DNA from: Methylomonas koyamae
GTDB lineage: Bacteria > Pseudomonadota > Gammaproteobacteria > Methylococcales > Methylomonadaceae
Assembly: GCF_019669905.1 (NCBI RefSeq)
Contig: NZ_AP019777.1
Location: 1,860,001-1,924,000 of the forward strand
Length of the DNA: 64,000 nucleotides
Direction: 5' to 3'
Every line of letters begins with the position of its first letter. Within the stretch, counting starts at the first letter, position 1. Below are positions 34,613 through 38,671 of this stretch, piece by piece. The notes beneath the pieces were generated by a model. The model was not told the DNA's origin. It did not search any database and saw nothing but the letters and a program-made list of their open reading frames with translations. A program made the translations under genes and the position numbers.

Positions 34613-36061
34613 ATGTCCACATCCGCTCAAGAAATCGAAAACCTGATCAGCCAGGAATACAAACAAGGCTTCGTCACCGAACTGGAAGCCGATACCTTTC
34701 CGCCGGGCTTGGATGAAGACGTGATTCGCCGTTTGTCCAAGGTCAAAAACGAGCCCGAGTTCATGCTCGAATACCGGCTGAAGGCGTTTCGCCATTGGCA
34801 AACCATGCCGTCGCCGGATTGGGCGCAACTGAAAATCGACCCGATCGACTATCAGGCCATCAGTTATTACTCGGCGCCAAAGTCCAAGAAAGATGGCCCG
34901 AAAAGTTTGGACGAAGTCGATCCCGAGTTGCTGGAAACCTATAAAAAGCTCGGCATTCCTTTGGATGAACAAGAGCGCTTGGCGGGTATAGCGGTTGATG
35001 CCGTGTTCGATAGCGTCTCCGTTGCCACCACATTTAAAGGCAAGCTCAAAGAAGCGGGAGTGATTTTTTGCCCTATTTCCGAAGCGCTGCAAGAACATCC
35101 GGAGTTGGTTAAACAATACCTCGGTAGCGTGGTACCGGTTGGCGACAATTTTTTCGCCGCGTTGAATTCTGCAGTGTTTACCGACGGTTCCTTCGTTTAC
35201 ATCCCCAAAGGCGTGCGCTGCCCGATGGAGTTATCCACCTATTTTAGAATCAACGCCGCCAACACCGGCCAATTCGAAAGAACCTTGATCATCGCCGACG
35301 AAGGCTCGCATGTGTCCTATCTGGAAGGCTGTACCGCGCCGATGCGCGACGAAAACCAGCTACATGCAGCGGTGGTCGAGTTGGTCGCCCTGGATAACGC
35401 CCAAATCAAATATTCCACCGTGCAAAACTGGTATCCCGGCGATAAGGATGGCAAGGGAGGGATCTACAACTTCGTGACAAAACGCGCCGAATGTCGCGGT
35501 CACAATTCCAAAGTCTCCTGGACCCAAGTCGAAACCGGTTCGGCGATCACCTGGAAATACCCGAGCTGCGTGCTGTTGGGCGACGATTCGGTCGGCGAGT
35601 TTTATTCGGTGGCGTTGACCAACAATCTGCAACAGGCCGACACCGGCACCAAGATGATCCACATCGGCAAGAACACCCGCAGTACCATTGTGTCCAAGGG
35701 GATTTCTGCTGGCAAGGCCCAAAACACTTATCGCGGCTTGGTGAAGGTTGCTAAATCCGCCACAAACGCCCGCAACCATACCCAATGCGATTCGTTGTTA
35801 GTCGGGGATAAATGCGGCGCGCATACTTTTCCCTATGTTGAAGTGAAGCAACCGACTGCGCAGGTCGAACACGAAGCGACCACATCCAAGATCAGCGAAG
35901 ATCAATTGTTCTTTTGCCAGCAGCGTGGTTTATCGGCCGAAGATGCGGTGTCGATGATTGTGAATGGTTTTTGTAAGGAAGTGTTTAAGGAATTGCCGAT
36001 GGAGTTTGCGGTTGAGGCGCAGGCCTTGTTGGGGATTAGTTTGGAGGGGGCCGTTGGGTAA
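34613..36061 (+). CDS. sufB: Fe-S cluster assembly scaffold SufB
   Basis: A 482-residue scaffold subunit of SufBC2D, which builds Fe-S clusters under stress. Typical segments include [46 protein letters not shown] and [43 protein letters not shown]. Normal length. It overlaps the next gene (hicA remnant) by one base. In other genomes sufC follows directly; here 2.6 kb of accessory genes intervene. Confidence 0.96.
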
Positions 36062-36318
36062 TGGGCAAATACGATAAGCTGCTGTATAAGATTCTCGGCG
36101 GCAGATCGGATGGCAATATCGCCTTTGCCGAGTTGATGCAGTTACTCCAACGAATGGATTTCGAGGTCAGAATCCGCGGCGACCACCACATTTTTACTCG
36201 CGTCGATATTGCGGAAATTTTGAATTTGCAACCAAACGGCGCAATGGCAAAAAGCTATTAAGTCAAACAAGTGCGACAAGTGATCGTCAAATATCAATTG
36301 GGATTACGTGATGAATAA
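36061..36318 (+). pseudogene. hicA: hicA toxin gene interrupted by one nonsense codon
   Basis: The frame encodes a HicA-type mRNA interferase: short basic fold, active-site histidine in RGDHHIFTR and LNLQPNGAMAKSY near the end. A TAA at 36259-36261 stops it at 66 residues. Reading past it in the same frame gives VKQVRQVIVKYQLG and a stop at 36318, exactly the canonical HicA C-terminus. A single C-to-T change (CAA to TAA) explains this. The restored 85-residue frame overlaps hicB, as in intact hicAB. The truncated protein lacks the last helix and is probably inactive, but this is inference. Confidence 0.85.
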
Positions 36319-36520
36319 ATACGAAATGATTGTTTATTGGAGCGAGTCGGATCAAGCCTATCTTGTGGAAGTGCCGGAGCTATCAGGTTGCATGGCTGAT
36401 GGCAAAAGTTACCAAGAGGCTGTCAAAAATGCCGAGGTGGTGATCCAGGAGTGGATCGATACTGCTTTGGAGCTGGGTAGAGTGATTCCTGAACCCAAGG
36501 GGCGATTGTTGTATGCGTAA
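36311..36520 (+). CDS. hicB: HicB-type antitoxin
   Basis: A 69-residue HicB with the partial RNase H-like fold: YEMIVYWSESDQAYLVEVPELSGCMADGKSYQEAVKNAEVVIQEWI. It is the short form without an added DNA-binding domain. It starts inside the end of the original hicA frame and is intact, while its toxin partner carries a stop codon. Start at the ATG at 36311; a GTG one codon earlier is possible. Confidence 0.88.
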   Translation: MNKYEMIVYWSESDQAYLVEVPELSGCMADGKSYQEAVKNAEVVIQEWIDTALELGRVIPEPKGRLLYA

Positions 36521-36530
36521 ATTGTTGGTT

Positions 36531-37100
36531 TTCGTAGGTTGGGTTTACCCCTTAGGGCATAAAAGGCGATAACCGTAACCCAGCACGATGGTTTTCGGAT
36601 TATTTGGTGGCTTTTGTTTTTGTGGTGTCGCTATCGCGAAGGATGGTTTTGAAGTCGGGTCTCGGCCCGACGGCCGAGTGACTTTTCTTTGCTTGGCCAA
36701 AGAAAAGTCACCAAAAGAAAGGCCACCCGGAATTCCGCCAATTTCCTGCGCTTTTACGAAAACCATCCATGGTTTTCGCCTTGCGGGCCAGCCTATCGGC
36801 TGTTCAAATTTGCTCCAGGCAAATTTGTCGCTTTTGGCGAGGGTTTTCGGAAGGGGCTTCCCAGCCCCTCCGAAAACGAGCGGCATCCCTGCCGCTCCCC
36901 TGCGGGCTGATCTCGCCAAATACCCAAAGGGCACAAGAGCTGCGATGCTCGGGGCGGAATAACGGGAATAACCCCTTCTTGGATTTAAAGCGATTGGAGT
37001 TTTGGATGGGCAAAAATTTTTAGGATCTGCCGACGAAAGGAGGCGCATAGTTAGTGCTAGATGCGCTTCACTCCGTTCAGCACAGCCTACGAGTTGCTCA
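36531..37100. repeat. repeat-rich region; possible split MITE-like sequence around the hairpin element
   Basis: The 639 bases between hicB and the putAbiC-like gene contain no convincing gene. Near the left, CGTAGGTTGGGTTTAC with a downstream GTAACCC resembles palindromic intergenic repeats; near the right, GCACAGCCTACGAG contains the complementary CCTACG. Between them lies the multi-hairpin element (36624-36975). Open frames here, read on either strand, are products of repeat sequence. Confidence 0.5.
36624..36975 (+). repeat. multi-hairpin element, copy A
   Basis: A string of hairpins: TCGC/GCGA (36628-36639), GTCGGG/CCCGAC (36654-36671, loop TCTCGG), GTGACTTTTCTTTG with CAAAGAAAAGTCAC (36678-36711), GTTTTCGG/CCGAAAAC with an inner AGGGGCT/AGCCCC (36843-36877), and GAGCGGC/GCCGCTC (36878-36897, loop ATCCCT). 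An extra segment (about 36745-36840) carries more hairpins. An inverted, diverged copy is at 37870-38140. Stems differ between copies but stay paired, while loops are nearly unchanged. Confidence 0.8.
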
Positions 37101-37159
37101 ACTCATCCTATAAACACTATTTGAAATAAATATTGGGTTTAATAGGTGAAGAGTTAAAG

Positions 37160-37810
37160 ATGCGAAAATCGGAAGCGAATGTATTTAAAACGAAAGAAAT
37201 GATTTTTATATACGCAATTGTTTTATTTGTTTTTGCTAGCTATTTTATCAACTTTAATGATCAAATTTCGAATGATACTCAAGTTTGGGCGGCATTTGGG
37301 AGCTATATAGGTGGTATCCTCAGTCCTATCGTGGCTGTATTTGCTTTTTACTTGATTTGCAAGACTTATGAATTGCAGAAAGATGAGCTTGAAAAGACAA
37401 GGCAGTTGCTACAGCAATCAACTGATGCGCAAGAGAAGAATATAAAACTAGCTGCACTAACTCAATTTATCAATATAAATTTAGAACGTATTAGTGTTTT
37501 GCAAGTTGAATATGATCGAATGTTAAATTGTCTTATTTCTGGAGTTAATAATACGCAGATTGTGCATAGATTAATGTTTCTCGAAAAGTATAGAGGACTT
37601 GGAAATGTTTCTCCAGATGACCCTCAATTTGAAAAAGAGATAGAAGAGTCTGATCAACGATCTGCTGAGTGTGATTCGCTCCAAAATGAACTTAGGGAAA
37701 TTGGTGAAGAGTTTTCAATGATGTTTTTTAGGTTGCGGAGTATAGAAATAGAGATTTTTGAATATAATATGGACATCGACAGTTTAAAAACAAAAATCAT
37801 AAACATTTAA
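37160..37810 (+). CDS. putAbiC-like two-helix membrane protein, possible phage-defence protein
   Basis: A 216-residue protein with two membrane helices (about residues 14-31 and 48-67), the motif VWAAFGSYIGGILSPIVAVFAF between and within them, then a charged coiled coil beginning LQKDELEKTRQLLQQS. This N-terminal plan matches the putative abortive-infection family (putAbiC), whose members read W-x-x-FGxxxGG-xLxPIxxFxxF and then a helical arm. Base composition is clearly more AT-rich than in the flanking suf genes. It is framed by two inverted hairpin elements inside the suf operon. A defence role is inferred, not shown. Confidence 0.65.
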   Translation: MRKSEANVFKTKEMIFIYAIVLFVFASYFINFNDQISNDTQVWAAFGSYIGGILSPIVAVFAFYLICKTYELQKDELEKTRQLLQQSTDAQEKNIKLAALTQFININLERISVLQVEYDRMLNCLISGVNNTQIVHRLMFLEKYRGLGNVSPDDPQFEKEIEESDQRSAECDSLQNELREIGEEFSMMFFRLRSIEIEIFEYNMDIDSLKTKIINI

Positions 37811-37869
37811 CCCAGAGTAGGTCCGATTAGCGAGGCGTAATTGGACCTACTATTTCGATTTATAGCTTT

Positions 37870-38140
37870 AATTTGCGGGGTGGTTTTCTTCCCGTTTTGC
37901 CGCGCCGAGCACCGGAGGGTTGAGCGGAGTTGCCCGCAGGGGCGATGCAGGGATGCATCGCGTTTTCCGAAGGGGCTGGGGAAGCCCCTTCGGAAAACCC
38001 CGCTCAAACCTGAGGAGCGCAGGATTAACGCGGCATTCGGGTCGCCTTTTCTTTGGATACTTTCTTTTGGCAAAGCAAAAGAAAGTATCTCGCCTGTCGG
38101 TGCGAGAACCGACATTAAAAAACCGTCGCGATAGCGACAC
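37870..38140 (-). repeat. multi-hairpin element, copy B (inverted relative to copy A)
   Basis: Read on the minus strand it repeats copy A. Hairpins on + coordinates: GTCGC/GCGAC (38125-38138), GTCGGT/ACCGAC (38096-38113), GATACTTTCTTTTG with CAAAAGAAAGTATC (38056-38089), GTTTTCCGAAGGGGCT with AGCCCCTTCGGAAAAC (37962-37998) and GCGATGC/GCATCGC (37942-37961). All stems are perfect. Loops read on the minus strand (TCTCGC, CTTTGC, ATCCCT) match those of copy A, although many stem bases differ. The extra segment of copy A is absent. Confidence 0.8.
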
Positions 38141-38168
38141 TAAAAGTAGAGAAAATAACTAAACCCCA

Positions 38169-38423
38169 ATGCCTGAAATATCTCGCTTCTACGGAATTAT
38201 TATCCGAATGTTCTTGATCGATAAGGAGCATCCTCCTCGTCATATTCATATCAAATACGGCGAATATCAAGCAGTAATGGAGTTGGAGAATTTGAATATC
38301 ATTGACGGCAGTATTCCCAGAAGATGTCGCATATTAGTTAGAGAATGGGCTGAATTACATCAGGATGAATTGATAGCCATGTGGGATAGTCAAAACTTTC
38401 ACAGTATCGCCCCTTTGGAGTAA
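38169..38423 (+). CDS. DUF4160 protein, probable toxin-antitoxin component
   Basis: An 84-residue protein: MPEISRFYGIIIRMFLIDKEHPPRHIHIKYGEYQAVMELENLNIIDGSIPRR, the characteristic DUF4160 core with the PPRHIHIKYG histidine motif. The family is regularly paired with DUF2442, as here five bases downstream, and the pair is predicted to be a toxin-antitoxin-like module. It lies in the accessory block between sufB and sufC. Confidence 0.82.
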   Translation: MPEISRFYGIIIRMFLIDKEHPPRHIHIKYGEYQAVMELENLNIIDGSIPRRCRILVREWAELHQDELIAMWDSQNFHSIAPLE

Positions 38424-38428
38424 AGAAA

Positions 38429-38671
38429 ATGAAGCTTAAGAAATTTGAACATCTCGATGGATACAGTTTTGAACTGGTCTTTGAAAATGGCCAAACATCC
38501 AAAGTAAATTTGCAGGATTTAATCAGTCAATATGTTTCTCCGGATGAGGTCAAAACGGCCCGGATTGATCCTGAATGGGGCTGTTTGGAATTTAACGATG
38601 GCGCAGCGGATATTGAGCCAAAAACGCTCTATCAATTTGCCATGAAAACGACGATACAACATGCAGCCTGA
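38429..38671 (+). CDS. DUF2442 protein, probable partner of DUF4160
   Basis: An 80-residue protein whose strands YSFELVFENGQTSKVNLQDLI and RIDPEWGCLEFNDGAADIEPKTLY match DUF2442. It is co-directional and nearly adjacent to the DUF4160 gene. Last gene of the insertion before sufC, whose start is 36 bases further on. Confidence 0.82.
   Translation: MKLKKFEHLDGYSFELVFENGQTSKVNLQDLISQYVSPDEVKTARIDPEWGCLEFNDGAADIEPKTLYQFAMKTTIQHAA

Follow-up and report, generated by a model that had tools for sequence, protein, structure and literature searches.

Inverted multi-hairpin ends in Methylomonas koyamae belong to a widespread bacterial family and appear to fold as single-stranded DNA

Integron attC sites are folded single-strand recombination sites around exchangeable genes. 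The elements described here would resemble them in this respect, but they form inverted ends on both sides of a cargo at scattered sites, with no array. In TIRtrons (TIRYT), RAYT-like transposases are flanked by long terminal inverted repeats, and many of the described repeats carry a GGGGWSAS motif (PMC3733652). REPs are 20-40 bp long and tagged with GTAG or CGTC (PMC3733652, PMC6006769), and Y1 transposases work on single-stranded, folded ends (PMC6006769). The TM-ECO/PIT motif is composed of a pyrimidine stem, a loop, a purine stem, a loop and an antiparallel purine third strand. For the G/C-rich DNA motif a triplex was characterised in vitro, and the motif has been linked to genome rearrangement; the same study saw no mobility genes around it and did not obtain support for a triplex that is stable in vivo (PMC4666352).

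As in TIRtrons, the ends form dispersed families, often dimers (PMC3733652), and a RAYT-type gene may sit between long inverted ends in the present family, although most units have none. Unlike TIRtron ends, these are about 270 nt long, contain pseudoknots and a mirror strand as well as a branched domain, and often enclose unrelated cargo or nothing. Inverted hairpin pairs, a single-strand logic and the association with RAYT genes are shared with REPINs and REPtrons, and bare pairs in other genera resemble giant REPINs; however, the ends are not short GTAG-tagged REPs, since the terminal repeat GTGTCGCTRNCGCGAC does not start with GTAG and each end spans about 270 nt. The new ends have the same strand order as TM-ECO/PIT (PMC4666352), but they are A-rich, pinned by a pseudoknot and part of a much larger mobile end. 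We place the family near TIRtrons and REPINs, with an intrastrand-triplex core, and consider it better read as folded DNA ends than as RNA. Word searches of open-licence papers found no earlier description of it.

The unit in the suf region

The window is a stretch of 64,000 nt of the M. koyamae chromosome (NZ_AP019777.1, positions 1,860,001 to 1,924,000). By direct reading and an inverted-repeat search, copy A (36625 to ~36975, plus strand) and copy B (~37866 to 38140, minus strand) both read inward. They are the two inverted ends of one unit, and the same layout recurs at other sites and in other genomes. As a sequence-only reading of the window had described, the two copies frame a gene in the suf region; the genes flanking the unit are presumably sufB and sufC, names read by eye from the protein sequences. 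The features are collected in Table 1.

Table 1. Features of the unit and its flanks, with positions in the window
Feature	Position	Strand	Basis
Whole unit, 1,516 bp, two inverted folded ends with cargo between	36625..38140	.	read directly, inverted-repeat search, BLAST
5' flank of end A, C-depletion zone	36500..36624	+	family-wide statistics only
End A, outer terminal repeat GTGTCGCTATCGCGA..., small hairpin, one mismatch to consensus	36625..36641	+	
End A, hairpin GTCGGG/CCCGAC, loop pairing downstream (pseudoknot 1)	36654..36671	+	
End A, pseudoknot 1, 3' strand, CCGAG pairing with loop CTCGG	36674..36678	+	
End A, long hairpin: pyrimidine arm, loop CTTGGC, purine arm	36678..36711	+	inverted-repeat search, covariation
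End A, third strand AAAAGAAA, mirror of purine arm, triplex candidate	36713..36720	+	
End A, pseudoknot 2, 3' strand, partner the long-hairpin loop	36721..36725	+	
End A, branched 3' domain, interrupted by nested module	36726..36975	+	
Nested hairpin module of ~75-80 bp inside copy A	~36755..36831	+	limits by eye
Cargo gene, 225 aa, GC 0.33	37133..37810	+	
End B, complete folded copy, inverted	37866..38140	-	
End B, first hairpin	38113-38096	-	
End B, pseudoknot 1 strand	38093-38089	-	
End B, long hairpin	38088-38057	-	
End B, mirror third strand AAAGAAAA	38054-38047	-	
End B, pseudoknot 2 strand	38046-38042	-	
End B, 5' fold (first hairpin to pseudoknot 2 strand)	38042..38113	-	read directly, covariation, mirror strand
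End B, branched 3' domain	37891..38043	-	
5' flank of end B, C-depletion zone	38141..38290	-	family-wide statistics only

The matching hairpin series that had been noticed in A and B is real, and both copies fold far better than shuffled sequences. Folded as DNA, end B reaches -77.7 kcal/mol, whereas its shuffles average -43.7 (z -8.2) and none of 200 does as well; for end A the values are -100.6 and -59.0 kcal/mol (z -9.3; 0 of 100). The stems quoted as differing between the copies (GTCGGG/CCCGAC and GTCGGT/ACCGAC; GTGACTTTTCTTTG and GATACTTTCTTTTG; GAGCGGC/GCCGCTC and GCGATGC/GCATCGC) are present, and direct reading finds the quoted loops in both. Beyond what had been noticed, copy A contains a nested module, both copies have terminal repeats, and the hairpins are part of a larger fold that comprises two pseudoknots, a third strand mirroring one stem, and a 3' domain with branches. 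Each copy starts with a terminal repeat of consensus GTGTCGCTRNCGCGAC, which occurs in the host genome 34 times exactly and 38 times at ≤1 mismatch (reversed control 1+1), and all 34 exact instances sit at these elements. Nested hairpin modules of about 75 bp are located at varying positions within copies, hairpin loops included (36755-36831 in the window; 949177, 3425660 and 1731100 in the host genome); we read them as a second repeat family that targets the fold.

The cargo had been called AbiC-like. This name found no backing, with no Pfam family at E<=1e-3, none in PADLOC at E<=0.01 and one NCBIfam match far under its cut-off. The gene has a GC content of 0.33, compared with 0.567 in the host stretches examined. 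By eye the product looks like a membrane protein, and a 40% identical protein is the cargo of another species' unit (L044). Several homologues are called 'large-conductance mechanosensitive channel' by one source, and 6 of 81 carry a HicB-type domain in the same polypeptide. A HicB-like antitoxin gene (36061-36520, Pfam) lies between sufB and the unit, preceded by a small HicA-like ORF (by eye), and a link between the HicB-like gene and the cargo is hinted at by these sequences. DUF4160 and DUF2442 genes (38169-38671, Pfam), possibly a toxin-antitoxin-like pair within the suf region, are found between the unit and sufC. The expectation that chance open frames across such elements are annotated as proteins held for one such frame, which matches 17 predicted proteins, 10 of them called 'hypothetical protein' by a source.

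Distribution, cargo and mobility

BLAST of the 5.1-Mb host genome gave 68 matches for copy A and 46 for copy B. The genome contains 38 whole or partial copies of the 270-nt unit, of which 22 form 11 pairs (a plus copy, then a minus copy) spanning 0.65-4.1 kb, and the remaining copies are single or partnered by a bare terminal repeat. Two mini-units of 75 and 83 bp have the terminal repeat at both ends. One 652-bp unit with two ends and almost no cargo is present twice (host contig 2271794-2272445 and 4686697-4687348); because the identity runs at least 50 bp past its ends, a larger segment was duplicated and not the unit alone.

Relatives were searched with R1, a covariance model of the 5' half in which the pseudoknots are not included. 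Of 121 genomes of the taxonomic family, 52 have matches; these include every one of the eight same-genus genomes listed, of which the host is one. At class level the model matches in 78 of 369 genomes. In a draw of 299 genomes from the phylum, with the host's class included, 21 have matches, and all 21 belong to that class. The matches listed per genome are subject to a cap. Named records with matches are from Methylobacter, Dyella, Lysobacter, Aeromonas, Burkholderia, Polaromonas, Acidovorax and Silvimonas. A Desulfobacterales, a Desulfobulbus and a Ruminococcus MAG also match R1, possibly through contamination. The family is widespread in bacteria. Blastn of end B gave one short match only against plasmids and none against phages. 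The 87 loci from other genera contain 31 neighbouring matches within 4 kb, and 27 of them are arranged plus then minus, which is the inverted pairing of two hairpin units known from REPINs, and many further pairs occur in family and class genomes among the matches listed. Since 25 of these 27 pairs are shorter than 0.8 kb, with room for little or no cargo, carrying cargo may be only a secondary use.

Within the genus, the genes enclosed by the ends are diverse and for the most part AT-rich, and elsewhere the ends usually form a bare inverted pair. Among 79 cargo ORFs listed in the genus, 44 have a GC content below 0.45. Family scans covered part of the 79 (three overlapping sets of ten proteins each). 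They identified Septu PtuA in L142, with a PtuB-like neighbour below the PtuB cut-off but above that of TIGR02646, as well as PDC-S19 in L055, DUF2971 in L011, GGDEF in L051 and OmpA in L135; several of the scanned proteins had no family.

At one site occupied in nine congeners, between genes that we take by eye from their protein sequences to be tusA and argJ, five species have A ends with identities of 0.91-0.97 to one another. Comparisons that include any of the remaining four A ends give 0.76-0.92, and A against B ends 0.77-0.92. The trimmed middles have stretches of 30-260 bp common to several pairs, some of them probably parts of elements, and a longer common middle (611 bp) only in L119 and L120. 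Because five A ends are near-identical while the cargo mostly differs, content changes more than the ends. The same observation would be expected if the ends were old fixed repeats between which cargo was swapped only by homologous recombination after DNA uptake. We consider this unlikely, since the sites of units are empty in some congeners and insertions are found at many loci, so that whole units come and go. Movement is here inferred from comparisons between species, none having been seen within a single one.

The terminal inverted repeats, the mini-units with both repeats and the empty sites would also suit a MITE-like transposon moved by an unknown DDE transposase, with the fold being incidental. 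No abutting direct repeat longer than 2 bp, as a target-site duplication would leave, was found in 43 units. When the unit ends were shifted by up to 4 bp, a 3-5-bp direct repeat appeared in 12 of the 43, a count without a chance control that would favour such a transposon. Against it, no DDE transposase, nor any other transposase, was recognised as common to the units among the 79 listed cargo ORFs, part of which were scanned against families, and the fold is conserved and covarying. We consider a MITE quite improbable. The outer flanks of a unit tend to be mutually complementary at the terminal repeats (43 units, permutation p 0.0005), as if units had been inserted into small palindromes.

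Near copies, 11 distinct RAYT-type genes were found in 7 genomes, counted with queries from four units after removal of one duplicate locus. Ten are on the 3' (inner) side of a copy, and one lies between two same-direction copies. NCBIfam calls all three scanned genes RAYT. Within the host genome, 3 of 9 Y1 hits are at elements, which make up an estimated 1% or so of the genome, and two more RAYT-like stretches were seen at host elements in separate searches. GTAG-tagged REP-like hairpins (GTAGGGTGGGCACGG...) are visible by eye just outside several host elements. The RAYT association fits a single-strand transposition model and is no proof of it. The RAYT genes may be passengers, because the queries came from four units, most units have no RAYT, the RAYTs fall in two groups, and other IS genes, by eye presumably IS3, IS5 and IS110, are also located inside units. 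Mobilisation of the units by RAYT is perhaps the case, though somewhat doubtful.

A strand-specific mark in the flanks

Cytosine is depleted over about 120-150 bp outside the terminal repeat on the strand reading toward the copy, i.e., the folding strand. At third codon positions of neighbouring ORFs, the C fraction is 0.05-0.15 within 60 bp, 0.09-0.26 at 60-120 bp and 0.31-0.40 at 200-800 bp, and the depletion is present in genes reading toward and away from the element. Of 118 flanks in the genus, 108 have less C close to the copy than far from it (p 1e-19), and so do 89 of 108 flanks in other genera (p 5e-14). Around 24 host copies, 8 of them unpaired, the scar was present on the 5' side and absent from the 3' side.

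Orthologous sites with and without a unit were compared without regard to species kinship. For tusA-argJ, nine species with the unit were set against nine of eleven empty ones (L107, a possible element loss, and L123, with a one-codon offset, were set aside). Near the unit in tusA, 60 of 97 C at conserved third positions had changed to T and 18 to G, compared with 4 and 3 of 44 far from it. In argJ, 5 of 38 C near the unit had changed to T and 1 to G (far, 0 of 37), and A had changed to G at 15 of 28 positions near and 8 of 27 far. At a second site, between what we presume by eye from the proteins to be urtB and urtC, eight species with a unit were compared with eight without, gap length being the only criterion for the distinction, and L132 may have a remnant. 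Near-unit C was 0.05-0.12 in filled and 0.23-0.33 in empty species, with A lower too, and just beyond the near zone it was similar (0.31 and 0.33; 0.30 and 0.31). The mark is a shift to G and T, chiefly through loss of C, and it follows insertion, because the filled orthologous sites are shifted and the empty ones are not.

A preference for C-poor targets was rejected, as the empty orthologous sites are not C-poor. A general codon bias at gene ends was rejected as well, its effect being far smaller (C at third positions is 0.33 over the ten codons at either end of a gene and 0.37-0.43 from codon 20 inward). As for a context-specific deaminase, TC was the least retained C context (0.48, compared with 0.58-0.74), a difference too weak to claim one. 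Pure cytosine deamination would not predict the pattern, since the change in argJ is mostly A to G and the urt sites lose A too.

We read the scar as damage to, or error-prone filling of, the template on the 5' side of a fold that halts copying and leaves this part single-stranded. Stalling is perhaps its origin, a tentative suggestion made less probable by the loss of A as well as C at some genes. The 3' side has no matching scar, though a fold free of G-U could form on both strands, which also speaks against our explanation. Alternatively, the scar may come from selection for unstructured flanks.

Covariation, the third strand and the nature of the fold

Covariation is not provable from copies A and B alone and was assessed in 24 full host copies. 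In an unguided column scan, the top ranks were mainly Watson-Crick helices, with the pseudoknot pairs near the top and cross-correlations lower down. The full structure has 85 pairs in 12 helices, two pseudoknots included. Standard pairs make up 98.2% of 2,039 cells, compared with 40.5-45.4% in slid controls, and 36 of the 85 pairs (231 cells) show two-sided change. One of five covariation measures, further pair types, was not above shuffles (185 of 500 as high). The earlier proposal of compensatory change, and of selection on structure, is borne out by these copies.

The 87 loci from other genera gave an alignment of 122 matches, with 13 Methylomonas records left out. The 5' half structure pairs at 94.3% in them, and at 37.8-53.0% when slid by 1-3 columns. 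The two pseudoknots pair in 86.0% and 90.9% of cells, and since they are absent from R1, the alignment did not impose this pairing. Gaps replace the first hairpin and pseudoknot 1 in 29-53 of the 122 matches and pseudoknot 2 in 6-8. Loop and junction sequences are retained in many distant copies. A second model, R2, describes the branched 3' domain; it has 44 matches in the 87 loci, and in 38 cases a 5'-domain match lies immediately 5' of the R2 match.

The purine arm of the long stem is mirrored in the segment that follows the stem, and where a C-G pair of the stem moves, a G in the segment moves along. Across 18 distinct stem alleles (rows with fewer than 8 letters were dropped), the mirrored match exceeded all 20,000 permutations, and the unmirrored match was weaker (p 0.011). 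Exceptions are L268 (twice), L267, L165 and L172, with a single change in L195. Apart from these, a third strand that mirrors the purine arm is what an intrastrand purine-motif triplex presents, and by analogy with the known motif the layout would be such a triplex, here pinned by pairing of the loop with a downstream strand. That a stable triplex in vivo found no support for the known motif (PMC4666352) counts against this reading. The known E. coli-type triplex motif (CCCTC...GAGGG...GGGGTGAGG) was seen by eye directly outside the terminal repeat in 4 of 68 flanks (L020, L023, L024 and L049).

The sequence-only reading had left open RNA or folded single-stranded DNA. The structure itself was upheld, and the choice can be narrowed, with folded single-stranded DNA favoured over RNA from the sequences, because G-U is nearly absent outside three constant columns, a purine strand is mirrored and the flank mark is strand-specific. 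Structured RNAs are usually richer in G-U. Here, 75 of 2,002 paired cells of the 24 host copies are G-U, 67 of these 75 being in the three constant columns, as are 41 of about 2,800 paired cells (summed by hand) in helices 2-5 of the 122 distant matches, wherever they lie; a tRNA control (4 tRNAs, 7 G-U among 84 pairs) was too small.

The fold could instead be a structured RNA, for example a guide or regulatory RNA, that is carried on a mobile element and acts post-transcription. Folding as RNA is also far beyond shuffles (z -7.6), the two pseudoknots and the branched 3' domain recall known structured RNAs, and the copies point inward to the cargo. Such an RNA is nonetheless improbable given the scarcity of G-U, and an Rfam scan of the window found no family at threshold except two tRNAs (the best sub-threshold match was RsmW, 29.5 bits vs 52). 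In addition, the flank DNA is altered on the folding strand regardless of the direction in which the neighbouring gene is transcribed, and the mirrored third strand suits the purine motif known for DNA (PMC4666352). Compensatory changes produced by hairpin-templated mutation (quasipalindrome correction) and not by selection on structure would explain why both arms change with very few one-sided intermediates, but are very unlikely, as the pseudoknot pairs and the mirror strand, which are not adjacent palindromes, covary too and many distant copies retain their loop and junction sequences.

From these patterns, it appears that single-stranded DNA of the ends folds into a knotted triple helix, and this DNA fold is the best supported piece of our explanation. 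As a whole, we think it somewhat more probable than not that a non-autonomous mobile unit has A and B as its two ends and that these ends work as folded single-stranded DNA. The folding strand, once single-stranded, would form a compact block in which a hairpin and a branched 3' domain are joined by an antiparallel purine third strand, pinned through pairing of the loop. This block could be recognised in trans by a HUH/Y1 transposase of the RAYT type that is specific for single strands. The block would also stall copying; over 120-150 nt on its 5' side the template would stay exposed and mutate, and cargo would then be exchanged between the conserved ends. Our confidence in the whole is slightly lowered because the argJ counts are weaker than those of tusA and most pairs outside the genus carry no cargo.

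We further suggest, as a rather speculative proposal, that the family is a class of mobile element not described before, with ends that form a knotted DNA triple helix in single-stranded DNA and are recognised in this form; that in methanotrophs cargo, phage-defence genes included, is traded through it between fixed chromosomal ports; and that repeated folding during replication writes a strand-specific G/T scar into neighbouring genes, recording where single-stranded DNA folds in living cells. If true, the family would represent a natural and widely distributed DNA structure with pseudoknots and a third strand kept by compensatory change, and rare evidence that such DNA folds matter in cells. 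From the scar, a genome sequence alone would reveal the strand that folds and the extent of single-stranded exposure. Some spurious 'hypothetical proteins' are also explained by the family, and in the genus its units would serve as dispersed ports for small genes, including anti-phage ones (Septu PtuA and the candidate PDC-S19).
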